A stretch of 64,000 nucleotides of DNA. Origin: Pseudomonas lalkuanensis. GTDB taxonomy: Bacteria; Pseudomonadota; Gammaproteobacteria; Pseudomonadales; Pseudomonadaceae. The notes under the pieces were generated by a model. That model saw only the letters and a list, made by a program, of their open reading frames with translations, was not told where the DNA came from and ran no database searches. The stretch covers positions 2,646,001 through 2,710,000 of the forward strand of contig NZ_CP043311.1 of assembly GCF_008807375.1 (NCBI RefSeq). Reading direction: 5' to 3'. Shown piece after piece: positions 14,940 to 62,400 of the stretch. A program made the translations under genes and the position numbers. Position 1 is the first letter of the stretch; each line of letters begins with the position of its first letter.

Positions 14940-15007
14940 TTCGCCAGTTGGCAGGGTGCGCCGCGCGCACCGCAGCAATGCAACCGGTGCGCAAAGCAAC
15001 CGGCCGC

Positions 15008-16243
<1,236 letters not shown>

Positions 16244-16275
16244 TCACCTGTTGTCGTGGTGCGCCTGTATTTTTT

Positions 16276-16334
16276 GTGGATGGGCATTGGCTTTGAAGGC
16301 AATATCCACGGTCATTCATGGACTTTTCGTGGAT
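16276..16334. promoter_or_regulatory. Candidate PobR sites in the pobA/pobR gap
   Basis: ATCCACG (16304-16310) and CGTGGAT (16328-16334) form an inverted repeat with 17 bases between. A further GTGGAT half-site lies at 16276-16281. They are in the only promoter region between the divergent pobA and pobR, close to the pobR start. Spacing of about 24 bases between centres fits an AraC-type dimer, but binding is inferred. Confidence 0.5.
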
Positions 16335-16353
16335 CTATGTCATTGGAGGTTCG

Positions 16354-17223
16354 ATGATCGAACAGAGCCATTCCCCCGTGCCGGTGTTCAAGCTCTACGG
16401 CGAGACGGCTGCCTGGCCGACGCCGGACCTGATCCACTGGGAGTCCATCGAGTCCCGCAGCCGCCTGCACGAATGGGAGATCAAGCCGCACCAGCACGGT
16501 GATCTGGTGCAACTGCTCTATGTGCGTTCGGGGCGTGCCGAGCTGGAGGTGGAAGGGCAGGTGAATCGTATCGACCGCGCCGCGCTGCAGGTGGTGCCGG
16601 CCCTGTGCGTGCATGGCTTCCGTTTTTCCGATGACGTGGACGGCCATGTGCTGACCCTGGCCCAACCGCTGGTGGAGCAGGTGGCCGGGTTGCTGGATAG
16701 CCAGGCGTTGCTTGCGCCGGCCTGTTTCGCGGCGGGCGAAAGCCAGCCTTACCTGGACACGCTGTTCGAAGCCATCAGCCGCGAGTACGCGCAACAGCAG
16801 CCCGGCCGCGAACTGATGCTGCAATCGCTGATCAGTGTGCTGCTGGTGTGGATCGGCCGTCGCTCGCTGGAGCAGCACCAATCCGATGCACACCAGCAGG
16901 ACCGGGGCCGCCTGCACCTGCAGGAATTCACCCGCCTGCTGGAGCAACACTTTCGCGAGCACCTGCCCATCGAACATTACGCTCAGCGCCTGGGCATCAG
17001 TGCCGCCCACCTCAATGCCCTGTGCCGGCGGCTTGCCGGGCAGTCGGCGCTGCAGATGATCAACCAGCGCCTGCTGCTGGAGGCCAAGCGCTGCCTGGTC
17101 TACACGGCAATGACCATCAATCAGGTATCGGACAGTCTCGGTTTCTCCGAACCGGCGTACTTCTCACGGTTCTTCAAGCGCGGTACGGGGCAGCCGCCGA
17201 AGGCGTTCCGCATTTCGCGGTAA
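16354..17223 (+). CDS. pobR: AraC-family activator PobR
   Basis: Regulator of 289 residues. An N-terminal cupin-like ligand domain (HQHGDLVQLLYVRSG) is followed by a C-terminal double helix-turn-helix ending GFSEPAYFSRFFKRGTGQPP, the AraC signature. The ATG at 16354 has GGAGG eight bases before it. It is divergent from pobA, and Pseudomonas pobA is controlled by an AraC-type PobR (unlike the IclR-type one of Acinetobacter). Its ligand should be 4-hydroxybenzoate. Confidence 0.9.
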   Translation: MIEQSHSPVPVFKLYGETAAWPTPDLIHWESIESRSRLHEWEIKPHQHGDLVQLLYVRSGRAELEVEGQVNRIDRAALQVVPALCVHGFRFSDDVDGHVLTLAQPLVEQVAGLLDSQALLAPACFAAGESQPYLDTLFEAISREYAQQQPGRELMLQSLISVLLVWIGRRSLEQHQSDAHQQDRGRLHLQEFTRLLEQHFREHLPIEHYAQRLGISAAHLNALCRRLAGQSALQMINQRLLLEAKRCLVYTAMTINQVSDSLGFSEPAYFSRFFKRGTGQPPKAFRISR

Positions 17224-17243
17224 GCGCTGGCGGTTGGATTTCC

Positions 17244-17295
17244 TGTGGGAGCGCATTCATTCGCGATGCTTTTCTCGACTGAAGTCGCTCCCACA
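17244..17295. repeat. REP-like palindrome
   Basis: TGTGGGAGCG on the left pairs with CGCTCCCACA on the right around the core ATTCATTCGCGA. It fills the gap between pobR and the convergent doxX gene and may end both transcripts. Confidence 0.8.
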
Positions 17296-17312
17296 AAGGA
17301 ATATCCCTGTCG

Positions 17313-17822
17313 TTATCTGTACCGCCTGGCAATCAGGTGGTCGATGGACAGCATCCCCGGCCCCTGGCTGACCAGCAGCAACAGGCTGGCGGCCCAGACA
17401 CCGTGGGTGGGGTAGGCGTCGGGGTAGATGAAAGTCTGGATCACCAGGGTCATGCCCAGCAGGGCCAGGGCCGAAAAGCGGGTGGCGAAGCCGATGAGGA
17501 TCAACAGCGGGAAGATGTGCTCGGAGAAGGCTGCCGCATGGGCCGCCAGTTCAGGCGAGAGGAAGGGCAGCTTGTATTCCTCGGTGAACAGCGGAATGGC
17601 CGAGTCCGACAGGTGCGGGATGCCCAGCACGAAAGTGCCGTCCACCAGGTCGATGGCCAGGCCTTCCACCTTGGTCTGCCCGGATTTCCAGAAGATCGCG
17701 GCAATGGAAAAGCGCGCGACGAAGGCCACCAGGCTGTAGGGGATCCGCTTGCACAGCTCGACGGCCTGGGACACCAGTTTCTTCGGCAAATGGCTGTAGT
17801 GGATCTGGATGGTGGCGTTCAT
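17313..17822 (-). CDS. DoxX-family membrane protein of the bufferin operon
   Basis: Protein of 169 residues with four hydrophobic segments, for example VAFVARFSIAAIFW, IFPLLILIGFATRFSALALL and LLGMTLVIQTFIY, typical of DoxX/DUF417-like proteins. The motif RFSIAAIFWKSGQTK is the usual DoxX start. It is the last gene of a four-gene operon, overlapping bufC by 4 bases. DoxX partners are regular members of bufferin loci. Its exact part in maturation or electron transfer is not settled. Confidence 0.88.
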   Translation of the reverse strand: MNATIQIHYSHLPKKLVSQAVELCKRIPYSLVAFVARFSIAAIFWKSGQTKVEGLAIDLVDGTFVLGIPHLSDSAIPLFTEEYKLPFLSPELAAHAAAFSEHIFPLLILIGFATRFSALALLGMTLVIQTFIYPDAYPTHGVWAASLLLLVSQGPGMLSIDHLIARRYR

Positions 17823-18595
17823 GGCATCTGACTCCCGCTGTGGAGGGTGAACCGCGTGATCGCGCCGCCTGCCAGCAGGCGCGCGAGGGTGGAGCCCGGG
17901 TCGAAGCCGGCGTCGATGGCCAGTGCGGTGCCCACGGCAGCGCCCAGCGGGTTACCGGCCGCCAGGGCCTGGATGAAGGCCGCCGTGCCCGTGCCGATGC
18001 GGCTGACTTCCACCTCCAGGCCATTGCGCAGTACCAGCGCGCATTCGGCCTGGCCGGGATTCACCTCGGCCAGGTCCAGCAGCCCCTGGTGGGCGGCCCA
18101 GAGGGAGGCGATGGCATGGTCGGAGCAGACCACCGCCACCGAGGGATGCAACCGGAGCTGCATGCCGGGCAGGCATTCCGGGTCGGACAGGACGGCGGCC
18201 AGACGGGCCGTGTCCAGCGCCGGCAGGTCGGCTGCGTGGTAGGCGTGCACCTGTGCCAGTTCCAGCCGCGCCACGTCTGCCAGATAGGGCAGGCCGGAGG
18301 CCGGCGGGAAGGCGCGGATGAACGCCGGGAAATCCTCGCCGTAGAACGCCAGCAGCGGCGAGCGGGGCGGTGTCGCCTGCACGTGCAGGCGCGCCATGCC
18401 ATTGAAGAATTCATCGCCCACCAGTTGCCGAACCACCGGGAAGGTGTCGGCCAGGGCGTTGATCAGCGAAGCCAGCACGTTGTTGCGGTACACGGCGAAG
18501 CGTTGCGCCGGGTCGGAACCGTTCCAGGCCCGCAGGCCGGATGGGCAGGGTTGTTCGGGGTCGAGCAGGGCATGGGCGAAGCTGTCGGCGTTCAT
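17819..18595 (-). CDS. bufC: Bufferin maturation partner BufC (DUF2063)
   Basis: Protein of 258 residues. The N-terminal half has the DUF2063 pattern (RFAVYRNNVLASLINALADT, PVVRQLVGDEFF) and the C-terminal half is a peptide-binding-like domain. In the related MbnB/MbnC and BufB/BufC systems this partner recruits the precursor peptide to the iron enzyme. Its start lies in the bufB stop (4-base overlap) and its end overlaps doxX by 4 bases, so all three are coupled. Confidence 0.88.
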   Translation of the reverse strand: MNADSFAHALLDPEQPCPSGLRAWNGSDPAQRFAVYRNNVLASLINALADTFPVVRQLVGDEFFNGMARLHVQATPPRSPLLAFYGEDFPAFIRAFPPASGLPYLADVARLELAQVHAYHAADLPALDTARLAAVLSDPECLPGMQLRLHPSVAVVCSDHAIASLWAAHQGLLDLAEVNPGQAECALVLRNGLEVEVSRIGTGTAAFIQALAAGNPLGAAVGTALAIDAGFDPGSTLARLLAGGAITRFTLHSGSQMP

Positions 18596-19461
18596 GCCGC
18601 GTGCTCCTGGCGCAGCCGCCGTTCGGCCTGATGCGCTTCGCGCACCAGCATTGCCAGCGCGGGGATGTCGTTGTCCCGCTCGATCAGCGTGGGCAGCGGG
18701 CCGAGGCGGCCGATCATCTCGTCGTAGAGGGCCCAGACGGCGGCGTCCACGGGCGACCCGTGATGATCGATCAGCAGGCGCGCGCCGGCCGCATCGCGGT
18801 CCTCGGCGAAGCCCGCCAGGTGAATCTCGCCCACTGCATGCAGGGGCAGGGCATTGAGGTAGGCGCGGACATCGCGATTGTGATTGGTGCAGGACACATG
18901 GGCGTTGTTCAGGTCCAGCAGCAGGCCGCAGCCGGTGCGCTTCACCACCTCGGAAATGAACTCGGCCTCGTCCAGGCTGGAGCTGTCGAATTCCAGGTAG
19001 GTGGCCGGGTTTTCCAGCAGCATTCGCCGCTGCAGATGGTCCTGCACCTGGTCGATGTGCCGGCAGACCCGCTCCAGGCTGGGCCGGTCATAGGCGAGTG
19101 GCAGCAGGTCGTTGAGAAAGAAGTCGCCATGGGTGGACCAGGCCAGGTGCTCGGAAAACGATTCCGGCTGGTAGCGCCCGAGCAGCGTGGCGAGGCGGTC
19201 CAGGTGGGCCATGTCCAGTGGCTGGTCGGCGCCGATGGACAGACCGACGCCGTGGATGGAGAGCGGGTAGTCCTGGCGGATCTCGCCCAGGTAGCGGTGA
19301 AAGGGCCCGCCTTCCACCATGTAGTTCTCGGCGTGGACTTCGAAGAAACCGAGGTCCGGACGGGCATCGAGCACGTCCCGGTGATGCCGGGACTTGAGCC
19401 CGATGCCGGCCCGGGCCGGCAGCTGGCCGGCAGGAGCGTGGGGCAGAGGGGAGTGGGACAT
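18592..19461 (-). CDS. bufB: Multinuclear iron oxidase BufB (DUF692/MNIO)
   Basis: Protein of 289 residues of the DUF692 family, TIM-barrel enzymes with two or three iron atoms that modify cysteines of precursor peptides. Candidate metal ligands are in SIHGVGLSIG, LLENPATY, DLNNAHVS, GEIHLAGF, IDHHGSPVD and LIERDNDIP. The substrate is almost certainly the Cys4 peptide encoded 24 bases upstream. In characterised bufferins two core cysteines are turned into thiooxazoles that bind copper; that is family knowledge, not seen here directly. Confidence 0.92.
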   Translation of the reverse strand: MSHSPLPHAPAGQLPARAGIGLKSRHHRDVLDARPDLGFFEVHAENYMVEGGPFHRYLGEIRQDYPLSIHGVGLSIGADQPLDMAHLDRLATLLGRYQPESFSEHLAWSTHGDFFLNDLLPLAYDRPSLERVCRHIDQVQDHLQRRMLLENPATYLEFDSSSLDEAEFISEVVKRTGCGLLLDLNNAHVSCTNHNRDVRAYLNALPLHAVGEIHLAGFAEDRDAAGARLLIDHHGSPVDAAVWALYDEMIGRLGPLPTLIERDNDIPALAMLVREAHQAERRLRQEHAA

Positions 19462-19485
19462 GGCGTGCGCTCCTGCCAGGGGCGG

Positions 19486-19797
19486 TCAGCTCTTCTTCTC
19501 TTCCTTGAATGCCTGGAGCTGGCCGTAGCCGGTGGGCGAAGTGGGGGAAGCGGTCTTCTCGCAGGTGCCTTTCGGGACGTATTTCCAGGAGTTGCCCTGG
19601 TAGTCCATCTTCTGGGTGCCCGCGCAGGAAGTGCCGGCGCCGGCAGCGCAGTCGTTCTTGCCCTTCATGGCGACGCCGAAGCATTTCTCGTTGTCGGCGG
19701 CCTGTGCGCCTACGGGGGCCATGGCCAGGCCGATGGCGGTGCTCAGGGCAAGGGCGAGACCGGTTGCGGATACGACACTGGCAGTCGGGTTTTTCAT
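19486..19797 (-). CDS. bufA: Bufferin precursor BufA1 (DUF2282)
   Basis: Precursor peptide of 103 residues from the ATG at 19797. A signal peptide (hydrophobic [20 protein letters not shown], cleavage near AQA-AD at 33/34) sends it to the periplasm. The mature part has exactly four cysteines at 39, 50, 58 and 79, in [23 protein letters not shown] and KGTCEK. This is the DUF2282 pattern of copper-buffering bufferins, with the second and third cysteines as the usual modification sites. It heads the operon bufA-bufB-bufC-doxX. A strongly lysine-rich tail (FKEEKKS) follows the last cysteine. Confidence 0.92.
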
Positions 19798-20024
19798 GGT
19801 TGTTCTCTCCGTTTCTGGTGGGTCGAATGTAGGGCTGGTTGCCCAGAGGTGGCGATTCATACCGCTGGATGCATCGCCTTCGAAACAGGAGACAAGGCTA
19901 TCCGGGCGGCGTTACAGGAGGCGAGAAAATTTTCTGCGCGCCTGGGTGGGAACGCCGGCCCGGCGACGCTACCGCCCCTCACCCCGGCCCCTTGCGCCGG
20001 TGTGGGGCGGCTGGTCATCGCTGG

Positions 20025-20343
20025 CTAGCTCGACCTGCGATCATGCGGGTAGGCCGTTTCCACCATCCGCCGGTCCACGTGGTTGATGGTGGTGATGATG
20101 ATGCGCTCGGCATCGCACAGCGCGGGCGCCATGGTCCAGCGCCTGGTGGCGTCGTTGCCGATGCGCACCATGCTGGTGTGTGTGGCCAGGTTGGCGTCCA
20201 CTTCCGGCACCGGGTCGTAGAAGCCCATGCTGAAGCGCACTCGGCGGATGTCGTCAGGCGAGCCGGTGCGGAACGGCCAACCAGAGGGCGCCGCCCGGAG
20301 TGCCTATGCCCATGCCGCCGAGTAGAACGCGTCGCGTGTTCAT
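20025..20343 (-). pseudogene. Remnant gene, frameshifted, downstream of the oxidase remnant
   Basis: Starts MNTRRVLLGGMGIG, with a twin-arginine-like or lipoprotein-like leader, at an ATG that overlaps the stop of the preceding frame (CCATGA). This frame meets TGA after 29 codons. A neighbouring frame then continues for about 80 residues (SPDDIRRVRFSMGFYDPV, NLATHTSMVRIGND, IIITTINHVDRRMVET) to a stop at 20025. The two pieces read as one damaged coding unit. I do not recognise the family. The overlap with the oxidase frame suggests they were once an operon. Confidence 0.5.
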
Positions 20344-20857
20344 GGTGTACCTCCTGTGTCCGGAGTGCCTGGTCTGGAAGGGCCGGCGGCGGGTGCCGCC
20401 GAGACCTCTTCCGGGGCGAGGGGACGCAGTTCCCGCAACCTGTCGGGCACCTGGCTGAGGTCCTGCTCGGGCGGTTGCCGGTCGACGACGAACTTCAACA
20501 CGCGAGGGCCGGGGCGGTTCTGGAACCCGTCGTCGTCGGCGCAGATGGTGCCGTAGTGCGGTTCCTTGAACTGCCCGGACCTCCCAGGGTGGGGCCGGTC
20601 TTGACCGGGCTGATGAAGTCGGCGGGGAAGCCGTCGCTCTCCGAGGCGGTGTGGCCGTTGTGCAGGTGTACCGAGTTTTCCGCTGAGCCGAATCCCTGGT
20701 GATCCTGGGGCAGCTCATTTCGGAAGCGCACGACCATGGGGCGACCGTAGTGTCCTACGCGCACGGGACCGGGCGCGGTGACCTCTCTGTCACCCCTGAA
20801 GCCCCATAAAGGTGGCGGAGGGTAGGCCGGCTTGAACACCGGGGCGGGACGTTCCAT
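20341..20857 (-). pseudogene. Decayed multicopper oxidase
   Basis: From an ATG at 20857 the frame gives a typical N-terminal region of a CotA/bilirubin-oxidase-like multicopper oxidase: PVFKPAYPPPP, GHYGRPMVVRFRNELP and the first copper motif region SVHLHNGHTASESDGFPADF. After about residue 95 a frameshift near 20575 is needed to continue with QFKEPHYGTICADDDGFQNR and RPGPRVLKFVVDRQPPEQDL, which is a late part of such oxidases. The middle of the protein and the C-terminal copper motifs are gone. It is therefore a shifted and internally deleted remnant. It points away from, but lies next to, the copper-related bufferin operon. Confidence 0.68.
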
Positions 20858-21304
20858 GGCGATCAGCTCGTGTCTTCATGGAAGCAGGCAGGAACGAGCT
20901 TTCGTGTGAAATCGCTCGAGTCTCGAATAGAGCGGCACGTCCACGGTTTGTGGCGGTGAAAGGTGGACTTCCTCCCAGGATGGGGTGGTCAAAATAATGG
21001 CGTTGCACCTTCATCATGAGGGTGGACCCGATGCCTTTGAAAATTGTTCCGGAGTTTCGACAAGCCTCGCTTTGCCCGAGCCGTCACGCGGCTGCGGGGC
21101 GTAACGGCGCCCGAACCGCCTTCTGCGTTTCGTCGCGTCTCTTGCCCTCCTGTCAAGGCAGCCGGGATGCCACCTTGACGGCTGTTGCCTGGTCACGAAA
21201 CTCAGGCGTCAGGGGCCGGATAAAAACTACAGATTCGCCAACGCTCAGCCCTCAATCAGCGGTACTGGCAACGATGACAATTGCTTCGGCTAGGGGAGGC
21301 AGTC
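20858..21304. other. 447-base gap with no recognised gene
   Basis: Upstream of the oxidase remnant on one side and of the Cys2 protein on the other. Short open frames here have no codon bias or family resemblance. It may include the lost promoter of the oxidase gene. GGGGAGGCAG just before 21305 is the ribosome site of the next gene. Confidence 0.4.
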
Positions 21305-21811
21305 ATGTGTCATGCAGTGGAAGTCAGTGGGCTTTACACCGCCGAAGGGAGCCGGCTACTCATCAATTACCCCGACAGTGACGCGGCATTGCCCATCCAT
21401 GATCCGCAGCGCGGCGTGGTGTGGATTCCCTGGGGACGCCGCAGCCAGGAGCATGGCGAGCTTCCGGCGACCGGCTGGCTGCCGGGGGGCGATGCGCTGC
21501 CGGACGGCTGGGACCGCTACAGCCCCGCCACGGTGCTGGCACGGGTGGAGCGCTTCATGGAGATGAGCCGTGATGGCGAACCCCGCTGGTTCGACGTGGA
21601 AGACGGTAAGTCGCTTCAATGCGTGCTGCTGCGCCACGGCCATGAACAGCGCGTGTATGTAGTCACCACCGAAGCACCCGACGCGCAGCACCGCCGCTGG
21701 CCCCTGACGCGTGGGCACGCGGGAAGAGGGCGGCTCATGGCGCGAGGTTGCTGCCAGGAGAGTGCGCCGCGCGCACCGCTGGCCGGGTGCCGTGCAGCGT
21801 CGGTCCCTTGA
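21305..21811 (+). CDS. Small protein with N-terminal Met-Cys (weak SRAP-like resemblance)
   Basis: Protein of 168 residues from the ATG at 21305, which has GGGGAGG before it. It begins MCHAVEVSGLYTAEG. A cysteine at position 2 and later pieces GVVWIPWGRR and EPRWFDVEDGKSLQCVLL faintly recall SRAP/YedK proteins, whose Cys2 is catalytic. The normal MCGRF start and the NARAE-type motif are missing, and the length is below the usual 220. The last 30 residues (RLMARGCCQESAPRAPLAGC) look like unselected read-through, so the true end may have been lost. I give no function. Confidence 0.55.
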   Translation: MCHAVEVSGLYTAEGSRLLINYPDSDAALPIHDPQRGVVWIPWGRRSQEHGELPATGWLPGGDALPDGWDRYSPATVLARVERFMEMSRDGEPRWFDVEDGKSLQCVLLRHGHEQRVYVVTTEAPDAQHRRWPLTRGHAGRGRLMARGCCQESAPRAPLAGCRAASVP

Positions 21812-21982
21812 GCGCAGCGCGTGGCTCGACCTGCGCTCAGGCAATTGTCGCGGGCATCGCCTTTCTCTTTTTGTGAAGAATTTCTTCTCGATTATTCGTT
21901 TTACGTGAATCGGTCGCTGCCTTAATTTCGCCGCACGACTGACCGCGAGCCCTGACCGGCTTTCACGTACAACGAGGACAGC

Positions 21983-23362
21983 ATGACTACGCCTGCCGCC
22001 ATCTCCCGCAACCCCGCCACCGGCGAAGAAATTGCCCGCTATCCCTACCAGGATGCCGCCGCCCTGGAAGCCAGCCTGGCGTCCAGTCAGCGTGGCTTCG
22101 CGGCGTGGAGCCAGTTCAGCGTCGAGGAGCGCAGTGCTGCGCTGCTGCGCATGGCCAAGGCCCTGCGCGCCAACGCCGAGGCCATGGCGCGCATGAGCAC
22201 CACCGAGATGGGCATGCCGATCAGCCAGTCCCGTGGCGAGATCGAGAAATGCGCCAAGCTCTGCGAGTGGTATGCCGAGCACGGCCCGGCCATGGTCGCG
22301 GACGAACCGACCCTGGTGGAAGACGACAAGGCTGTGGTTGCCTACCTGCCGCTGGGCCCGGTGCTGGCGGTAATGCCCTGGAACTTCCCGGTGTGGCAGG
22401 TGATGCGCGGCGCTGTACCGATCATCTTCGGTGGCAACAGCTATGTGCTCAAGCACGCCCCAAACGTCATGGGCTGCGCCCGTCTGCTGGCTTCCGTCTG
22501 GGCCGAAGCCGGCCTGCCGGAAGGCGTGTTCGAGGTGATCAACGTCGAGCCGCCGCTGGTTTCGGTGGCCATCGCCGACCCGCGCATCGCCATGGTGGCG
22601 GTGACCGGTAGCGTTGGCGCCGGTGCTGCCATCGCCGCCCAGGCCGGTGCCGCACTGAAGAAGTGCGTACTGGAACTGGGCGGTTCCGACCCCTTCATCG
22701 TGCTGGCCGATGCCGATCTGGACCAGGCCGTGAAGGCTGCCGTCACCAGCCGCTTCAACAACGCCGGTCAGGTCTGTATCGCCGCCAAGCGCATCATCCT
22801 CGAAGCCCCCATCGCCGAAGCCTTCACCGAGCGCTTCGTGGCGGCGGTCAAGGCGCTGCAGATCGGCGATCCGCAGGCTGATTCCACCTTCGTCGGCCCT
22901 ATGGCCCGCTTCGACCTGCGCGACGAGCTCGATGGCCAGGTCCAGGCCACCCTGGCCGAAGGCGCGACCCTGCTGTTGGGCGGCCACAAGCTGGAAGGCG
23001 AGGGCAACTACTACGCGCCCACCGTGCTGGCGGACGTGACCCCGGACATGACCGCCTTCCGCAAGGAAATCTTCGGCCCGGTGGCTTCGCTCATCGTCGC
23101 CCGCGATGCCGAGCATGCAGTCGAGCTGGCCAACGACAGCGAGTTCGGCCTGGGCGGCGCGCTCTGGACCACCGACGCGGCCAAGGCGCAGAAACTGGCC
23201 CGCCGTATCGTCAGCGGCGCGGTGTTCATCAACGGCTTCACCGCCTCCGACCCGCGTGTGCCGATCGGCGGCGTGAAGAAGAGCGGTTACGGCCGCGAAC
23301 TGTCCCACTTCGGCCTGCGCGAGTTCCTCAACGTGCAGACCATCTGGCGCGATCGCGGCTGA
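21983..23362 (+). CDS. sad: Sad-type succinate semialdehyde dehydrogenase
   Basis: Aldehyde dehydrogenase of 459 residues, closely like E. coli Sad (YneI). Shared stretches are CEWYAEHGPAM, VLAVMPWNFPVWQVMRGAVP, LKHAPNVMGCA, GAALKKCVLELGGSDPFIVL and GPMARFDLRDELDGQV. The general-base glutamate is in LELGG and the catalytic cysteine in NAGQVCIAAKR. It oxidises succinate semialdehyde (GABA catabolism) or a related semialdehyde. It ends in a strong terminator and converges on a GabR/MocR-type regulator, which may control it. Confidence 0.9.
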   Translation: MTTPAAISRNPATGEEIARYPYQDAAALEASLASSQRGFAAWSQFSVEERSAALLRMAKALRANAEAMARMSTTEMGMPISQSRGEIEKCAKLCEWYAEHGPAMVADEPTLVEDDKAVVAYLPLGPVLAVMPWNFPVWQVMRGAVPIIFGGNSYVLKHAPNVMGCARLLASVWAEAGLPEGVFEVINVEPPLVSVAIADPRIAMVAVTGSVGAGAAIAAQAGAALKKCVLELGGSDPFIVLADADLDQAVKAAVTSRFNNAGQVCIAAKRIILEAPIAEAFTERFVAAVKALQIGDPQADSTFVGPMARFDLRDELDGQVQATLAEGATLLLGGHKLEGEGNYYAPTVLADVTPDMTAFRKEIFGPVASLIVARDAEHAVELANDSEFGLGGALWTTDAAKAQKLARRIVSGAVFINGFTASDPRVPIGGVKKSGYGRELSHFGLREFLNVQTIWRDRG

Positions 23363-23385
23363 TCGACCGGGGTGGATGAAGAAAG

Positions 23386-23414
23386 GGGCTGATGTGTTCA
23401 GCCCTTTTTCTTTT
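23386..23414 (+). terminator. Rho-independent terminator after sad
   Basis: GGGCTGA-TGTGT-TCAGCCC followed by TTTTTCTTTT, 23 bases after the sad stop. A textbook intrinsic terminator. Confidence 0.92.
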
Positions 23415-23563
23415 GTGCCCTGCGCGTACCTCGACCTGTCAGGACGAAGCCGATCGGGTAGGGGCCGGACCGAGCTGAAGAGATCGACCTGTGGCAAGGG
23501 ACGGACTCGCGCCCTTCCAGGGGGCTACGGCAAGTCCACTTTCTACGAACGTGGATGTTGGCT

Positions 23564-23621
23564 TGTGGGCGCGAATTCATTCGCGAATGGGCCCTGCATC
23601 GAGACTGAAATCGCTCCCACA
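23564..23621. repeat. REP-like palindrome
   Basis: TGTGGGCGCGAATTCATTCG on the left and AAATCGCTCCCACA on the right, with a one-base mismatch in the outer arm. It lies between the sad terminator and the end of the convergent regulator gene. Confidence 0.8.
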
Positions 23622-23651
23622 GAAGCCGACAAAGCAGCCCAGAACCGGAAC

Positions 23652-25085
23652 CTACGCAATCTGCTCCAGGATATCCCGCACCCGGTCCAGCGCCGGGTCG
23701 AGGTCCAGGGTTTCGATGGCGCCGTAGCCGAGGAACAGGCCGTTGCGCGGTGGTACCTGGTAAGAGAATCCGGCCAGCGGGTAGAGACCCACGTCCAGCT
23801 TGCGCGCCAGCTCCACCAGCAGCGGGATGTCCAGTGGCAGCCTGGCCTGGGCCGCGAGGTGGAAGCCGGCCACCGAGGGCACCAGTTCGAACCAGTGCGC
23901 CAGGTCGCCATTGAAGCGATCGAGGATGCGCTCCCGCCGGCTGGCGTAGATGGCATGGCAGCGGCGGATGTGTTTTTGCAGGCAGCCGTCGTCGATGAAC
24001 TTGGCCAGGGTCCACTGGGTGAGGGTGGAGCAGTGCCAGTCGCTGAGCTGCTTGGCGGCGGTGACGGCTTCGACCAGCGCCGGCGGCAGGATGCAGTAAC
24101 CCAGGCGCAACTCCGGCTGCAGGGACTTGGAGAAAGTGCCGACATAGGCCACCGCGCCCTGGCTGTCGAGGCTCTGCAGGGTTTCGCTCGGCCTGCCTTC
24201 GTAGCGGAACTCGCAGTCGTAGTCGTCTTCGATGATCACCGCACCGATGCGCAGGGCCTTCTCCAGCAGTGCCACGCGCCGTGCCTGGCTCATGGGCATG
24301 CCGAGGGGGAACTGGTGCGAGGGGGTCACGTAGATCAGCCGCACGTGCTCCGGTATGGCGTCGACGCAGATGCCTTCCGCATCCACCGGTACGCCGATCA
24401 CCTCGGCACCCTGGGCAGCGAAGCTCTGCCGCGCCGGCGGGTAGCCGGGATCTTCCACCGCCACGCTGCAGCCGGGTTCCACCAGCACGCGGGCGAGCAA
24501 GTCCAGGGCCTGCTGGGCACCGTGGCAGACCAGCACGTCTTCGACGTTGCAGTGCACCCCACGGGAAAACGCCACATGCCGGGCGATGGCGTCACGCAGC
24601 GCGGGCAGGCCGGCGGGCTGGCTGTAGAGCCCGCGGGATTTCGCGGTCTGGCGCAGGGCGTGCTGGGCGCAGCGGCGCCAGTCATCCTGGGGAAACTGGT
24701 TGCGGGTGGTGGCGCCGCCAATGAAGTCGTAGCGCAATATCGCGTCCATGGACGGATGGCCCAGGGAGGTGGAGATGTTGTGCCATTTGGAGATGATCGC
24801 TGCACTGGCCAGCGACTCGTGGCCCTGCTTGCGGCACTGGCCGACGGCCTGGGCGTTGACGAAGGTGCCCGAGCCCACCTTGCCGGTGAGCAGGTTGTCG
24901 TAGGTGAGCAGGGCATAGGTGTCCGCCACCGTCTTGCGCGAGATGCCCAGTTGCTCGGCCAGCAGGCGGCTCGGCGGCAGCCGGGTGCCAGCCTTGAGAC
25001 GCCCGGATTCGATGGCCTCGCGCAATTGCCGGTACAACTGCCCGGACAGGTCCTTGCTGCCCTGGATGACAATGTGCAGTTCCAT
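23652..25085 (-). CDS. MocR/GabR-type regulator (GntR helix-turn-helix plus aminotransferase domain)
   Basis: Protein of 477 residues from the ATG at 25085. The GntR domain covers about residues 1-75 (LSGQLYRQLREAIESGRLK, LPPSRLLAEQLGISRKTV). A fold-type I aminotransferase domain follows, with VCHGAQQALDLLARVLVEPG, VTPSHQFPLG, IIEDDYDCEFRY and the PLP-binding lysine in VGTFSKSLQPELRLGY. Such proteins sense PLP plus an amino compound such as GABA, and act on nearby catabolic genes. The convergent sad gene suggests a link to GABA or a diamine, but the target is inferred. Confidence 0.88.
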   Translation of the reverse strand: MELHIVIQGSKDLSGQLYRQLREAIESGRLKAGTRLPPSRLLAEQLGISRKTVADTYALLTYDNLLTGKVGSGTFVNAQAVGQCRKQGHESLASAAIISKWHNISTSLGHPSMDAILRYDFIGGATTRNQFPQDDWRRCAQHALRQTAKSRGLYSQPAGLPALRDAIARHVAFSRGVHCNVEDVLVCHGAQQALDLLARVLVEPGCSVAVEDPGYPPARQSFAAQGAEVIGVPVDAEGICVDAIPEHVRLIYVTPSHQFPLGMPMSQARRVALLEKALRIGAVIIEDDYDCEFRYEGRPSETLQSLDSQGAVAYVGTFSKSLQPELRLGYCILPPALVEAVTAAKQLSDWHCSTLTQWTLAKFIDDGCLQKHIRRCHAIYASRRERILDRFNGDLAHWFELVPSVAGFHLAAQARLPLDIPLLVELARKLDVGLYPLAGFSYQVPPRNGLFLGYGAIETLDLDPALDRVRDILEQIA

Positions 25086-53392: not shown

Positions 53393-53449
53393 GCCGCCCG
53401 CATTCCCCGATCAAACCGATTGCAAGCCGTACTCAGGCAGGAACGAAAA

Positions 53450-56400
53450 ATGACGGAAGTGTTCGATCTCCCAGGCACCCTGGTGGAGGCGCTGCAGTGT
53501 CGCGCTGCGGCGGAGCCGGAACGTGTGGCCCTGCGGTTCCTCGGCGGGGACCAGCCAACCGGCGAGGTGCTCGACTACCGCCAGCTGGACTGGCGTGCCC
53601 GCCGCATCGCCGCCGCGCTGCAACAGCGCGCCAGCGTCGGGGATCGCGCCGTGTTGCTGTTCAACAGCGGCCCGGACTACGTCGCCAGCTTTTTCGCCTG
53701 CCTGTATGCCGGTGTGATCGCGGTTCCGGCCTATCCGCCGGAGTCCAACCGTCACCATCACTTGCAGCGCTTGCACTCGATACTCGACGACGCCGAGCCG
53801 GCCCTGGTGTTGACCTCCACCGGCCTTGAAGTCCAGTTGCGGTCCGCACTGGGCGAGCAGTCCGGCCGCCTGCTCTGCGTCGACCGCCTGGCCACGGACC
53901 TGACCGAGGCCTTCCAGCCGGTGGAACTGTCCGGCGAGCACATCGCCTTCCTGCAATACACCTCCGGCTCCACTTCGCTTCCCAAGGGCGTGCAGGTCAG
54001 CCACGGCAACCTGGTGGCCAACGAGCAGATGATCCGCCACGGCTTCGGCATCTGCGATGACGACGTGATCGTCAGCTGGCTGCCGCTCTACCACGACATG
54101 GGCCTGATCGGCGGCCTGCTGCAGGGCATCTGGAGCGGCGTGCCGGTGGTGCTGATGTCGCCGCAATACTTCCTCGAACGCCCGGTGCGCTGGCTGGAAG
54201 CCATCAGCCAGTTCGGCGGCACCGTCAGCGGCGGCCCGGACTTCGCCTACCGCCTGTGCTGCGAGCGCATCAGCGAATCGGCCATGGCTCGCCTCGACCT
54301 GTCCGGCTGGCGCCTGGCGTTCTCCGGCTCGGAGCCCATCCGCAAGGACAGCCTCGATGCGTTCGCGGAGACGTTCGCTGCCTGCGGTTTCTCCAGCGCG
54401 TCCTGGTTTGCCTGCTACGGCCTGGCCGAGGCGACGCTCTTCGTCACCGGCGCCCGCCGTGGCCAGGGCATCAATGTGCGTGAACTGGATGCCGCAGCCC
54501 TGGCCACCAATCGTGCCGAAAGTGGCCGCGGCGCCATCGCCATCAGTTGCGGTTACCCGCAGCCGGGCCACGAGCTGATGCTGGTGGACCCGCTGCACGG
54601 TGGCGTCCTGGGCAACGGCCAGGTGGGCGAGATCTGGGTCAGCGGCACCAGCGTCGCCCTCGGCTACTGGTGCAATCCGCAAGCCAGTGCGCGCACCTTC
54701 GTCGAGCGTGATGGGCGCACCTGGCTGCGTACCGGCGATCTTGGCTTCCTGCTGGAGGGCGAGCTGCACATCACCGGCCGCCTGAAGGACATGCTCATCG
54801 TCCGTGGCCACAACCTCTATCCGCAGGACATCGAGCGCACCGTCGAGACGGACGTCGAAGTCGTGCGCAAGGGCCGCGTCGCCGCCTTTGCCGTGCAGCA
54901 CCTGGGCAATGAAGGCATCGGCATCGCCGCCGAGATCGGTCGCCGCGCACAGAAGAGGGTGCCGCCGGACGTACTGGCGCGGATGATCCGCCAGGCCGTG
55001 GCCCAAGCCCATCAGGAAAGCCCGGCGGTGGTCGTACTGCTCAACCCCGGCGCGCTGCCCAAGACCTCCAGCGGCAAGTTGCAGCGCTCCGCCTGCCGCA
55101 GCCAGCTGGCCGACGGCAGCCTCGACCACTACGCGCTGTTCCGTGAGGGCGACGCCGTTCGCCTGCCCGGCGAGACGCCGAGCGCAGCCGCCGATGGCCT
55201 GGTGGCCAGGCTCTGGCGCGAGCAGTTGGACCTGGCCGAGCTGAATGCCGGCGACAACTTCTTCGCCCTGGGCGGCAACTCCATCCGTGCCGTACAAGTC
55301 ATGGCCCGACTGCGCGAAGAGCGCGGCGTGGCCGTGGAGATGCGTCACCTGTTCGAAGCACCCACCCTGGGCGAATTCTCCGCGCTGGTGGAGCGTCTGG
55401 CGGCCGAAGGCGGACAAGCAGAGGGCGGCATCGCGCGTCTCGACCGCAGCCAGCCGCTGGCCCAATCCGCCGCGCAGAACCGGCTCTGGTTCCTCTGGCA
55501 GCTCGATCCGCAAAGTGCCGCCTACAACATCCCTGGCGCCTTGCGCCTGCGCGGCAACCTCGATGAGGCAGCCCTTGAGCAGAGCTTCCTCCAGTTGGTG
55601 GAGCGCCATGAATCTCTGCGTACCACCTTCCATGAACTGGGCGGCCTGCCGGTCCAGCGCATCCACCCGGCCGGTGCGTTCGCGCTGAGCCTGATCGACC
55701 TCGAAGACCAGCCGGACGCCGAAGCCCGCGCCCTCGCCATCCGCGAGTCGGAAGCGCTGGCGCCGTTCGACCTGGAGAACGGGCCGCTGCTGCGGGTCAG
55801 CCTGGTGCGCATCGCCGAGCGCGATCACCTGCTGCTGGTGACCCTGCATCACATCATTGCGGACGGCTGGTCGCTGGACCTGCTGCTGAACGAGTTCTCC
55901 CGCCTCTACGGCGCCATCGGACTTGGCCAGTACGCAGCGCTTGAACCGCTCGCGCTGCAATATGTCGATGTGGCTGCCTGGCAGAGCCAATGGCTGGCGG
56001 CGGGCGAGGGCAAGCGCCAGCTCGACTGGTGGAAAGCCCAGCTGGGTGAGGAACAGCCGCTGCTGCTGATGCCCACCGATCGGCCGCGTACACCGGATGC
56101 GCGCTATCGCGCCGGCCGCTACAGCGTGCGCCTGGACAAGGCCCTCGGCGAGCGGCTGCAACAGCTGGCCCGCGAGCATGACGCCAGCCTGTTCATGGTG
56201 CTGCTGGCCAGCTGGCAGGCCTTGTTGCACCGCTACAGCGGACAGAAGGACATCCGCCTCGGCGTGCCGGGCGCCAACCGTGCGCGCCTGGAAAGCCAGG
56301 GGCTGATCGGTTTCTTCATCAACACCCTGGTGCTGCGCGGCGAGCTGGATGGGCGCATGCCCTTCGAGGCGTTGTTGGCCCAGGCCCGCCAAGCCACCCT

Positions 56401-59400
56401 GGGCGCCCAGTCCCATCAGGAACTGCCGTTCGAGCAACTGTTGGAAGCCTTCCCTGAAGCCCGTGCCCAGGGCGGCCTGTTCCAGGTGCTGTTCAATCAC
56501 CAGCAGCGCGATCACCGCGCGCTGCAACGCCTGCCCGGCCTGTCTGCCGAAGAGCTGCCGTGGAACAGCTTCGAGGCGAAGTTCGAATTGCAATTGCAGA
56601 GCGAGGAAGACGAGCGTGGGCGCATCAGCCTGTCGTTCGACTACGCCGTCGAATTGTTCGACGAGGTCACCATCGCCCGCCTGGCCAGCCACTTCCAACG
56701 CCTGCTCTGGCAGGTCGCCGAGCGCCCGGACCTGGCCATCGGCGACGTGCAACTGCTGGGCGACACCGAGCGCTCCCAGCTCGCCGTCTGGAGCAGCGCG
56801 CCGCGCGAACGCGCCCAGCGCTGGTTGCCCGAGCTGCTCGCCGAGCAGGTGGTCGCCGCTGCCGGACGCCCCTTGCTGCTGGGACGCGAAGCCCTGTCCC
56901 TGGGTCAACTGGATGCCCGCGCCAACCGCCTGGCCAACCGCCTGCGAGCCCTGGGCGTTGCACCCGAAGTGCGTGTCGGCATCTGCGCCGAGCGCTCGCC
57001 AGAGCTGCTGGTGGGGCTGCTGGCCATCCTCAAGGCCGGCGGTGCCTATGTGCCGCTGGACCCGGATTACCCCCGCGAGCGCCTGGCCTACATGGTCGAA
57101 GACAGCGGCATTCGCCTGCTGCTGACCCAGCGCCACCTCGACGTCGTGGCCCTGCCGGAAAACGTTCAGCGCCTCGACCTGGACCGTGCGGAGGAGGGGG
57201 AATGGCCCGCGACCGCGCCCACTCTGGCGCTGCTCGGCGAAAACCTCGCCTACGTGATCTACACCTCCGGCTCCACCGGCAAGCCCAAGGGCGTTGGCGT
57301 GACTCATGCCGCCCTGGCCGAGCGCCTGCTGTGGATGCGCGATACCTACGCTTTTGGCAGTGCCGACGTATTCATGCAGAAGGCTCCGGTCAGCTTCGAC
57401 GTGTCCGTCTGGGAATGCTTCCTGCCGCTGCTGTGTGGCAGCCGTCTGGTGCTGGCGGCACCCGGCGAGCACCGCGATCCGGCGCGCATCGTCGAACTGG
57501 TGCGCGAGCATGGCGTGACCGTGCTGCACTTCGTGCCGTCGCTGCTGCAACTCTTCATCGAAGAACCGCAACTGGCCCGGTGCAGCAGCCTGCGCCTGCT
57601 GTTCTCCGGCGGCGAGGCGCTGTCGGCCGAACTGCGCGACCGCGTACTCCGGCAGCTCCCGGCGGTGCAACTGCACAACCGCTACGGCCCGAGCGAAACC
57701 ACCATCAACGTCACCCACTGGCATTGTCGGGCGGGCGAGGGCGCTGTGGTGCCCATCGGCCGCCCGCTGGGCAATGCGCAGTGCCTGGTGCTGGACGAAA
57801 ACCTGGAAGTGGCCGTGCCCGGGGTAACCGGTGAACTGTGCATCGGTGGCGCGGGCCTGGCCCGGGGTTATCTCGGCCGCGCCGGCCTCAGCGCCGACCG
57901 CTTCGTGCCGAACCCGGATGGCAGCGGTTCGCGCCTCTATCGTACCGGCGACCTGGCGCGCTGGCGCGCCGACGGCGTGCTGGAGTACCTCGGCCGTGTC
58001 GACCAGCAGGTGAAGCTGCGCGGCTTCCGTATCGAGCTGGAGGAGATCGAAGCCTGCCTGCTGGCCCAGGCCGGCGTGCGCCAGGCCGTGGTGGTCCTGC
58101 GTGACAGCCAGGCTGGCCCGCAACTGGTGGGTTATGTGGTCGCCGATGCCGACGAACAACTGCTGGTGCGCCTGAAAGCCGCCCTGCAACTGGCCCTGCC
58201 GGAATACATGGTGCCGGCGCACCTGCTGCGCCTCGAGAAAATGCCGCTGTCCCCGGCCGGCAAGCTGGAGCGCAAGGCACTGCCGGAAGCGCAATGGCAG
58301 CAACGTGAACACGTGGCGCCGCAGACCGAAGTGGAGCAGCGTCTGGCCGCCATCTGGCGTGAAGTGCTGGGCGTCGCCCAGGTCGGCCTGGATGACGACT
58401 TCTTCGCGCTGGGCGGGCACTCCCTGCTGGCCACCCAGATCGTGTCCCGCAGCCGCCAGGCCTTCGACATCGAACTGCCGCTGCGCGCCCTGTTCGACGC
58501 CAGCCGCCTGGCCGATTTCGCCGCTCGCGTGGAGCTGGCCCTGGCCTCCGGCCTGCGCGACAGCCGGGGCACCATCGCCCGCGTCGACCGCAGCCAGCCG
58601 GTGGCCCTGTCGCATTCCCAGCAGCGCATGTGGTTCCTCTGGCAGATGGAGCCGGACAGCCCGGCCTACAACGTCGGTGGCGTGGCGCGCATGAGTGGCC
58701 GACTCGATGCCGAGCGTTTCGAAGTGGCCTTGCAGGCATTGATCAAACGCCATGAAACCTTGCGCACCACCTTCCCCAGCGAGGGCGGGGTGCCGGTGCA
58801 GCGGGTTTCGGAAGACTTCGGCCTGCGTATCCAGCGCGAGGACTTCTCCGCGTTGCCGGCCGTTGTGTTCCAGCAGCGCCTGGACGCCTTCGCCGATGCC
58901 GAGGCGCATCGTCCCTTCGACCTGGAGCAGGGGCCGCTGCTGCGGGTCTGCCTGGTCAAGGCCGAAGCCGAATTGCATTACCTGGTGGTGACCCTGCACC
59001 ACATCGTCACCGAAGGCTGGGCGATGGACATTTTCGCCCGTGAACTGGCCGAGCTCTACGCAGCGCAACTGGAGGGCCGCGAGGCGAACCTGGCGCCGTT
59101 GCCGGTGCAATACCTGGATTACAGCCAGTGGCATCGGCAGTGGCTGGAAGCGGGTGAGATGCAGCGCCAGCTGGACTACTGGAAGGCCCAACTGGGCGGC
59201 GAACAACCGCTGCTGGCGCTGCCGGCCGACCGTCCGCGCCCGCCGCTGCAGAGCCATTCCGGCGACCTGTTCCGCTTCGACCTGGATAACGAGCTGGCGG
59301 CGCAGGTGCGGGCCTTCAACGCCGAGCATGGGCTGACCATGTTCATGACCATGACCGCGGCCCTGGGTGTGTTGCTGTACCGCTACAGCGGCCAGGATGA

Positions 59401-62400
59401 CCTGCGCATCGGCGCGCCGGTGGCCAACCGCATCCGCCCGGAGAGCGAAGGGCTGATCGGTGCCTTCCTCAACACTCAGGTACTGCGCGTGCAGCCCAAG
59501 GGCCTGATGAGCGTGCGCGACTTGCTGGAGCAGGTGCGCCAGGTGGCGATCGATGCCCAGTCCCACCAGGACCTGCCGTTCGACCACCTGGTGGAGGCCT
59601 TGCAACCGCAACGCAGCGCCGCCTACAACCCGCTGTTCCAGGTGATGTGCAACGTCCAGCGCTGGGAATTCCAGCAGACCCGCGAAGTGGCCGGCCTGAC
59701 GCTGGAGTTCATCGCCAACGATGCCCGCGCCACCAAGTTCGACCTGAACCTGGAAGTCACCGACCTCGATGAGCGCCTGGGTTGCTGCCTGACCTACAGC
59801 TGCGACCTGTTCGACCGTCCGCGTATCGCGCGCATGGCCGGGCATTGGCAGAACCTGCTGCGGGCGATGATCGAAACGCCGGACGCCGTGCTCGCCGAGC
59901 TGCCGCTGTTCGCGGCCGAAGAGCGCGCGGCGCTGATCGACGCCCATCGCCAGGGTGCCGACGCCTACCCGCTGGACACCACGGTGCAGCAGCTGTTCGA
60001 GCGTCAGGCCGCCGCCGCCCCCCAAGCACTGGCACTGACCTACGCCGGCGAGCACCTCGGTTATGCCGAGCTCAACGCCCGTGCCAACCAACTGGCTCGC
60101 CGCCTGATCGAGCTGGGTGTGGGGCCGGAAGTGCGCGTGGGCCTTGCCCTGGAGCGTTCGCTGGAAATGGTGGTGGGCCTGCTGGCCATCCTCAAGGCCG
60201 GTGGCGCCTACGTCCCGCTGGACCCGGAATACCCTCTCGACCGTCTGCGCTACATGGTGGAGGACAGCGGCATCGCCCTGTTGCTGAGCCATGCCGGCCT
60301 GCTGGATGCCCTGGGCGAATTGCCTGCCGGCGTGGGCGGTTGGTGCGTCGAGCGTGACGGCGCTGTGCTGGCCGGCTATTCCGTCGAAAACCTGCCGGCG
60401 CGCAGCGGCCCGGAAAATCTTGCCTACGTGATCTACACCTCCGGTTCCACCGGCCAGCCCAAGGGCGTCGGCGTGGACCAGGGTGCCATCGCCATGCACC
60501 TGCAGGCGGTGGTCGCCGACTTCGGCATGCGCAGTGACGACTGCGAGTTGCACTTCTATTCGATCAACTTCGACGCCGCCAGCGAACGCCTGCTGGCGCC
60601 GCTGGTGTGCGGCGCGCGGGTGGTCCTGCGCGCCCAGGGGCAGTGGGGCGCTGAAGACATCTGCGGGCTCATCCGCGACCAGCAGGTGTCCATCCTCGGC
60701 TTCACCCCCAGCTATGGCTGCCAGTTGGCTCAGTGGCTGGACGGCCGTGGCGAGCGCCTGCCGGTGCGCCTGTGCATCACCGGTGGCGAAGCCCTGACTC
60801 CCGAATACCTGCAAGGGATACGTGCGACCTTCGTGCCCGAGCGCTTCTTCAACGCCTACGGTCCCACCGAAACCGTGGTGATGCCGCTGGCCAGCCTGTC
60901 GCCGGAACAACTGGAGGCGGGCGCCAGCAGCGTGCCCATCGGCACGGTGGTGGGCGCCCGCGCGCTGTACGTGCTGGACGCCGACCTCAACCTGGTGCCA
61001 CCGGGCGCCACCGGTGAGTTGTACGTGGGCGGTGAAGGCCTCGCCCGTGGCTATCACCAGCGCGCCGGCCTGACCGCCGGGCGCTTCGTGGCTGACCCCT
61101 TCGGTGCTCAGGGCGGTCGCCTGTACCGCACCGGCGATCTGGTACGGCAGCGAAACGATGGCCTGCTGGAATACGTCGGCCGCATCGACCTCCAGGTGAA
61201 GATTCGTGGTTTCCGCATCGAGCTGGGCGAGATCGAAGCCCGCCTGCAAGCCCAGGCGGGCGTGCGTGAGGCCGTGGTGCTGGCCCTGGAGACCAGCTCC
61301 GGCAGACAACTGGTGGGCTACCTGCTGCCGGAAGACCTGGCGCTGGCCAGCGCCGGTGCCGAGCGCCAGTCGGCGTTCCGCGAGCAGCTCAAGGCTGCAC
61401 TCAAGGCACTGCTGCCCGACTACATGGTGCCTGCGCACCTGGTGCTGCTGGAGCGCATGCCGCTGACCGCCAACGGCAAGCTGGACCGCAAGGCGCTGCC
61501 GGCACCGGACCTGGAGCGGGGCCGCCAGGCCTACGCGGCGCCGCGCAACGAGCGCGAGCGCCGACTGGCGGAGATCTGGCGCGAAGTGCTCAACCTGTCC
61601 CAGGTGGGCATTCACGACAACTTCTTCGAACTGGGCGGCGATTCCATTCTCTCCATCCAGGTGGTGAGCCGAGCTCGGCAGGTGGGCATCCATTTCACGC
61701 CCAAGGACCTGTTCCGCTTCCAGACCGTGCAGACACTGGCCGAAGCGGCCCAGGACACCCCGCACCGGGAAGCCGCTGCCATCGAGCAAGGCCCGCTCAG
61801 CGGCAGCGCCGGGCTGACGCCAATCCAGCACTGGTTCTTCGATGGCCGCGACACCGGGCTCAACCATTGGAACCAGGCACTGCTGCTGGAGCCCACCGAG
61901 GTAATCGATCCGACGCGGCTGGAAGCGGCCCTTGAGCAATTGCTGGCGCATCACGATGCGCTGCGCCTGTCCTTCCATCGGGACGGTACGAGCTGGAGTG
62001 CCGAATACCGGGCCCCGGAACCTTCCCATGACCTGCTCTGGCATCGCCAGGCAGCCACCGAAGCCGGGCGCCTGGAACTCTTCGAAAGCGCCCAGCGCAG
62101 CCTGGACATCAAGCGGGGGCCGCTGTTGCGTGCCGTGCTCACTGAAGGTCCAGGCAGCGAACAGCGGCTGCTGCTGGCCATCCACCACCTGGCGGTGGAT
62201 GGGGTGTCCTGGCGCGTCCTGCTGGAAGACCTGCAAGCCATCTATCGCCAACGAGCGGAGGGCCGCGATGCGCGATTGCCGCCCAAGACCAGCTCCCTGC
62301 GTGATTGGAGCGGTCGCCTGGCGGCCTATGCCAGCAGCGAATCCCTGCGTGAGGAACAGGCCTGGTGGCAGGACCATCTCGACGGCCCGACGGCCGAGCC

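Follow-up and report, generated by a model that had tools for sequence, protein, structure and literature searches.

The stretch of Pseudomonas lalkuanensis DNA analyzed here (the window; 64,000 nucleotides, positions 2646001-2710000 of G000:C1 in a single-contig genome of 6.06 Mb) carries a four-gene operon, bufA-bufB-bufC-doxX, for a bufferin, a secreted peptide expected to bind copper. Upstream of bufA lie the remains of a multicopper oxidase (MCO) gene. This arrangement raises the question of what transcribes the operon and whether its peptide took the place of the lost oxidase. We consider it very probable that this is a Buf1 operon kept by selection and driven by an extracytoplasmic function (ECF) sigma factor, that its BufA peptide is matured by BufB and BufC to chelate copper, and that the loss of the oxidase and its SCO-like partner is a separate matter. 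The new element is a conserved, stress-type ECF promoter before bufA in Pseudomonas, and its regulator is a testable question.

Gene content and conservation of the operon

The four genes lie on the minus strand (Table 1) in the order and over the span (17313-19797) given by an earlier note on this DNA. A 24-base gap separates bufA from bufB, and the 4-base overlaps that the note reported after bufB occur at both bufB/bufC and bufC/doxX. In Pfam, BufA matches DUF2282 (PF10048) with 87.4 bits against a cut-off of 22.4. BufB (MbnB_TglH_ChrH, PF05114; 343.2 bits), BufC (DUF2063; 95.5 bits) and DoxX (PF07681; 52.9 bits) also score above their cut-offs, and the DoxX gene of the core Buf1 cluster is thus present. 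The NCBIfam model NF050167 (MNIO_BufB) gives BufB 379.5 bits against a cut-off of 310, which identifies a BufB-type MNIO following its precursor gene. NCBIfam has no match for BufA, and its HvfC and HvfX models match BufC and DoxX below cut-off. The genome as a whole has one DUF2282 match and two MNIO genes. The second MNIO locus (G000:C1:3124000-3136000) encodes an HvfB-type enzyme (423.2 bits) and an HvfC-type partner (281.2 bits), together with a precursor of 241 aa that contains KCGExKCG motifs and has matches to EF-hand.

Sequence details agree with these assignments. The BufA signal, read by eye, is of the Sec type with Lys2, a hydrophobic stretch and an AQA-AD cleavage site, and the four cysteines do not vary among 15 aligned sequences, the window included; the secreted four-cysteine DUF2282 peptide of the earlier note stands. 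The metal-site residues of BufB are conserved; H70, H105, E150, D183, N186, H214, D232, H234 and E261 are invariant in 17 sequences. HvfB residues N175, D242 and H244 are reported to be essential (PMC13419390), and by our own reading three of the conserved BufB positions align with them. The BufC fold resembles NGO1945 and TglI and, less strongly, MbnC, and its C-terminal half is RRE-like. The sequence and fold tests back the Buf1 identity that the note proposed and support reading 17313-19797 as a complete, intact bufferin operon, an ordinary member of a known system type.

The operon was compared across 18 genomes of the genus. The buf genes lie near the same dehydrogenase (ALDH) gene in 13 of the 13 genomes with a close bufA, and the dN/dS ratios of the operon genes against six relatives are 0.13-0.33. 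Because of this kept position and these ratios, the operon is more than a chance arrangement and is under purifying selection. pobA flanks it in the window and in several relatives; at two related loci (L057 and L061) pobA was not found between doxX and the adjoining 375-aa gene. Of 72,556 plasmid records, 353 carry a relative of BufB. Escherichia accounts for 73 of these, and among the matches listed the Escherichia proteins are about 59% identical. A megablast search of plasmids with 16300-22000 gave a single matching record, which covers just the AraC-type gene.

The predicted bufA promoter and its sigma factor

A predicted ECF-type promoter precedes bufA. It consists of a -35 element TGTAAC (19916-19911), a 17-base spacer and a -10 element GTCTCC (19893-19888), and, counted from the first base of the -35 element, the bufA ATG follows after 119 bases. 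Conservation was measured in 97 bufA upstream regions, taken from the window, 17 genus relatives and 79 named loci. TGTAAC is present in 53 of them. [G/C]TCT follows at distance 17 in 44, and no other distance between 8 and 29 has more than two. The combined motif TGTAAC-N17-[G/C]TCT occurs in 44 of 55 Pseudomonas/Atopomonas regions versus 0 of 42 others. The positive regions comprise 12 of the 18 genus rows, 30 of 35 other Pseudomonas and both Atopomonas loci; P. protegens (L131/L132) is one of the species that carry this promoter. The six remaining genus rows are four that carry CGAA, L067 with GTCATT at the -10 place, and L073 (G004), which is only a remote match; the other Pseudomonas loci without the motif are L126, L128, L129, L164 (TATAAC) and L180 (CTCAAG). 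Among the 44 sites there are 37 different spacers; the sites are related sequences rather than independent events.

The motif belongs to one place. In the 47 Pseudomonas loci formed by the 35 others and the 12 genus rows, TGTAAC occurs 109 times when both strands are counted, and [G/C]TCT follows at distance 17 in 41 of these sites. That is the number of bufA sites, and the remaining 68 TGTAAC sites are without it. The exact pattern TGTAAC-N17-GTCTCYT is found once each in 10 of the 18 genus genomes, in every case ahead of bufA, and 2 further genomes have it there with one mismatch. At one mismatch or fewer there are 28 matches in the 18 genomes, of which 16 lie away from bufA; the reversed pattern gives 47. 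The motif is enriched only in the place before bufA and not genome-wide. It is present with or without the oxidase pair nearby, and was not found upstream of the precursor gene at the second MNIO locus. A sigma-70 scan of 17000-21400 found no promoter (shuffle mean 0.4). The strong conservation is the reason for predicting an ECF promoter here, and we found no description of such a promoter class for Pseudomonas bufferin operons in the open-licence literature.

Outside Pseudomonas and Atopomonas, 25 of the 42 loci have TGTAA(C/G)-N16/17-CGA, 5 have CGTC and 12 have neither. TGTAAG with CGACT is frequent there, another promoter variant. In Caulobacter, 5' RACE (rapid amplification of cDNA ends) located the promoters of two DUF2282 genes, which carry the sigma-F sequence GTAACC-N16-CGAA (PMC3511200), and a DUF692 operon controlled by RpoE7 in S. 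meliloti is reported with TGTAAC-N17-CGAAT (PMC6180224). Set against the sigma-F sequence, the window promoter (GTAACG-N16-GTCTCC) keeps the -35 core and the spacing and differs in the -10 element.

The P. lalkuanensis genome has no match to NrsF, linked or elsewhere, and no sigma-F ortholog (best E 7.5e-7 at 30% identity). NrsF scores above cut-off in 4 of the 18 genus genomes (G003, G007, G008 and G017), and the same four have a sigma-F ortholog (71-100% identity, E <=6.1e-79; best E elsewhere 1.3e-11). G009 has a partial NrsF match, below cut-off and with two stops. The four sigma-F/NrsF genomes are exactly those with a CGAA -10 element before bufA. Because their BufA proteins are 53-57% identical to that of the window and their loci differ, the CGAA and GTCTCC versions are two operon lineages and need not reflect the change of a single promoter in situ. 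No sigma-F-like or NrsF match was seen at the 35 other Pseudomonas loci or the 2 Atopomonas loci within the flanks fetched, some of which are short. Among the 42 other loci, fetched flanks contain a sigma-F-like match in 8 and NrsF in 2.

We lean, by a modest measure, towards a Pseudomonas-wide arrangement in which an ECF factor recognizing a [G/C]TCT(A/C) -10 element stands in for the sigma-F/NrsF pair known from Caulobacter, a second and unlinked wiring with a possibly very small regulon. In a search for the sigma gene, a looser motif was sought about 1.5 kb to each side at 17 of 29 loci of the P. lalkuanensis genome, and no sigma gene there had the motif before it. The one copy that turned up, at L206, lies antisense inside the sigma gene, was judged a chance match and was rejected as a pointer. 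The reported AlgU promoter, GAACTT-N16/17-TCtgA (PMC10651043), has the TCT core and the spacing in common with the bufA promoter, but its -35 element is different. AlgU is a possible factor for bufA.

Table 1. Positions of the operon, its predicted promoter and adjoining features in the window.
Feature	Position	Strand	Description
REP-like palindrome	17244..17295		Inverted repeat lying between doxX and an AraC-type gene, at their 3' ends
doxX	17313..17822	-	DoxX-family membrane protein, 169 aa
bufC	17819..18595	-	DUF2063 + RRE-like partner protein, 258 aa
bufB	18592..19461	-	MNIO maturase, 289 aa
bufA	19486..19797	-	Buf1 bufferin precursor, 103 aa; Sec-type signal peptide; Cys39/Cys50/Cys58/Cys79
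Predicted ECF-type bufA promoter	19888..19916	-	Conserved across Pseudomonas
SCO1/SenC-like gene remnant	20025..20343	-	tblastn with the intact L057 protein
Bilirubin-oxidase/CotA-like multicopper oxidase remnant	20343..20872	-	tblastn and blastn versus L057

The broken oxidase pair next to bufA

The dead multicopper oxidase that the earlier note placed beside bufA is present, and the remnant extends into an equally broken SCO1-like gene that the note did not mention. The oxidase has lost its start, its Tat signal and most of its coding region through internal deletions. The SCO1-like gene is recognizable for residues ~1-25 and 118-211 of the 211 in a relative, in different frames. Across the 13 genomes with a close bufA, the MCO-SCO pair at this locus is intact in 4, broken in 2 and absent from 7. 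The intact pairs (G012, G009, G006 and G011) lie between the dehydrogenase gene and bufA. Their oxidases are open frames of 618-666 aa as called, and their SCO1/SenC-like proteins have 211 aa in three genomes and 255 aa in G011, where the call begins at an upstream start. The SCO-like proteins of L057 and L058 match PF02630. The best PDB matches of the L057 (G012) oxidase are bilirubin oxidase and CotA; neither it nor the L058 oxidase matches the CopA model TIGR01480 at E 0.001, and the best NCBIfam match of both is PhsA, below cut-off. For the seven genomes without the pair, no match to it was found at L063-L068 and L062 has only a 33% match far from bufA. None of the 79 named loci (L125-L203) has it within flanks of up to 6 kb, several of them shortened by contig ends.

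Relative to G012, the window pair has four internal deletions of ~0.35, 0.6, 0.4 and 0.3 kb; the pair in the second genome with a broken copy, G015, has one of ~1.9 kb. The two losses look independent because G015 is sister to G012 with P. lalkuanensis outside (support 98/94), on a branch that is not among the 3 weak ones of the 10 inner branches. A single common loss was rejected, since the deletions differ and G015 groups with a genome in which the pair is intact. A (T/C)CATTATTTTGAC element stands before the pair in L057, L059 and L060 and is readable in the remnant at ~20987-21002 of the window; it was not seen before the L058 oxidase. It may be an operator belonging to the pair itself. 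The idea of one ECF-driven unit made of the pair and the buf genes was rejected, as none of the four intact relatives has the motif before the oxidase.

The earlier note took the dead oxidase as a sign that peptide buffering had replaced enzymatic copper handling here, and the broken gene in both P. lalkuanensis and G015 is what speaks for that proposal. The comparison contradicts it. The replacement idea fails because the four intact pairs coexist with a buf operon, the seven genomes without the pair have the operon nonetheless, and the P. lalkuanensis genome retains both paralogous pairs and CopA. These are four MCO-SCO pairs with open frames (L004, L005, L006 and L007), whose oxidases are 59-61% identical to the G012 oxidase and are directly followed by an adjoining SCO-like gene; the L004 match includes one stop, which is the end of a frame open for 597 codons. 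CopA is encoded at L002 (TIGR01480, 1000.1 bits), and L003 and L008 are two further oxidases. The lost enzyme is moreover CotA/bilirubin-oxidase-like and not CopA-like, and the missing motif upstream of the intact pairs counts against the proposal as well. We give the proposal almost no credence; a broken neighbour gene is no evidence that one copper strategy replaced another. Four CotA/bilirubin-oxidase-like and SCO1-like pairs in one genome are an unusual multiplication. DNA related to them occurs in at least 14 of the 57 genomes searched, and the matches listed all come from the same genus.

Two other parts of the window deserve mention. The palindrome beyond doxX, which we take to be of the kind called REP, has 23-base arms that are 83% complementary and is a possible terminator common to doxX and the AraC-type gene. 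The terminator scan of 17000-21400 found 2 candidates against 2.5 expected, nothing usable, and Rfam had no match in 15000-25000. At 53420-64000 a plus-strand peptide synthetase gene with 4 condensation and 3 adenylation stretches runs past the window end, and the opposite strand is open over 10.6 kb (3,529 codons) without a Pfam match, a long shadow frame.

Proposed function and relation to known systems

Buf1 precursors are reported to be exported by Sec and modified at their central cysteines, with the first and last cysteines joined in a disulfide, and their thiooxazoles to chelate periplasmic copper and enhance growth in excess copper (PMC12452194). By analogy, the window operon would be transcribed from its own promoter by an ECF sigma factor under envelope, metal or oxidant stress. 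BufC, with its DUF2063 and RRE parts, would bind the signal/leader region of BufA and present the precursor to BufB, a multi-iron enzyme predicted to oxidize Cys50 and Cys58 to thiooxazoles. A thiooxazole-type modification is expected at these two residues. The earlier note named a -2 Da or similar shift there; for this enzyme class the reported value is -4 Da per modified cysteine, in the related peptide fontiphorin (PMC12668002). Sec would then export the modified BufA, the Cys39-Cys79 disulfide would form, and the mature peptide would chelate excess copper in the periplasm. These steps of maturation, export and chelation are modeled on the bufferin studied in Caulobacter and on its relatives. 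DoxX is presumed to be an accessory membrane protein, and the broken upstream MCO-SCO pair would be a separate gene pair being lost on its own.

Two alternatives bear on how the operon is controlled. The conserved element could be the binding site of an activator or repressor instead of a sigma-factor promoter. A further conserved block follows the -10 element; most of the genus has TTCGAAGGCG or a similar sequence, and many other Pseudomonas have the palindrome CTCTAGAG. The 17-base spacing is nevertheless fixed over 37 different spacers, and the -35 core and spacing equal those of the sigma-F promoters mapped in Caulobacter (PMC3511200), so that a binding site of this kind is improbable. The second alternative accepts the ECF promoter and holds that the operon answers mainly to another stress such as oxidants, gold or chromium, with copper binding secondary. 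The ECF type of the promoter itself fits this, as do the reported sigma-F control of Caulobacter bufferin genes with chromium (PMC3511200), the response of the Legionella GIG promoter to gold as well as copper (PMC5413113) and the link between DoxX and protection from other stresses (PMC12452194). The Caulobacter bufferin is, on the other side, a reported copper chelator that aids growth under excess copper (PMC12452194), and we regard a mainly non-copper role as rather unlikely. A copper-chelating BufA under an ECF promoter is the reading that we retain.

Caulobacter CC3254-CC3257 is the closest parallel, with the same order of DUF2282, DUF692 (MNIO), DUF2063 and DoxX genes, a precursor with a signal peptide and four cysteines, and an ECF-type promoter with a GTAAC -35 element at the same spacing (PMC12452194, PMC3511200). 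The window differs in its GTCTCC -10 element, where Caulobacter has CGAA, and in a genome without sigma-F ortholog or NrsF. The four-gene cluster itself is already known in Pseudomonas. Strains of Pseudomonas fluorescens carry the same four families in the same order as Pep1, described as putative peptide clusters and reported to correlate with the suppression of a pathogen of potato (PMC8719888). Oxazolin/Hvf and other EGKCG captophorins pair an MNIO with a PME1 partner, share the 5-thiooxazole chemistry and often have DoxX (PMC12668002, PMC13419390). Their precursors belong to another family, with EGKCG repeats and not DUF2282 as in the window, and BufB reaches 224.3 bits against a cut-off of 360 with the NCBIfam HvfB model. 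The GIG operons of Cupriavidus and Legionella have DUF2282 and DUF692 genes as the window does, but in other hosts, with a gold and copper response and a possible RpoS influence (PMC5413113); gig operons are counted among bufferin clusters (PMC12452194).

Bufferins are a large and recently recognized class of modified peptides that chelate copper. In Pseudomonas, which is tractable as a host, the sampled bufferin operons are mostly without a linked sigma-F/NrsF. The sharply defined promoter before bufA makes the question of which stress-sensing sigma factor reads it directly testable.
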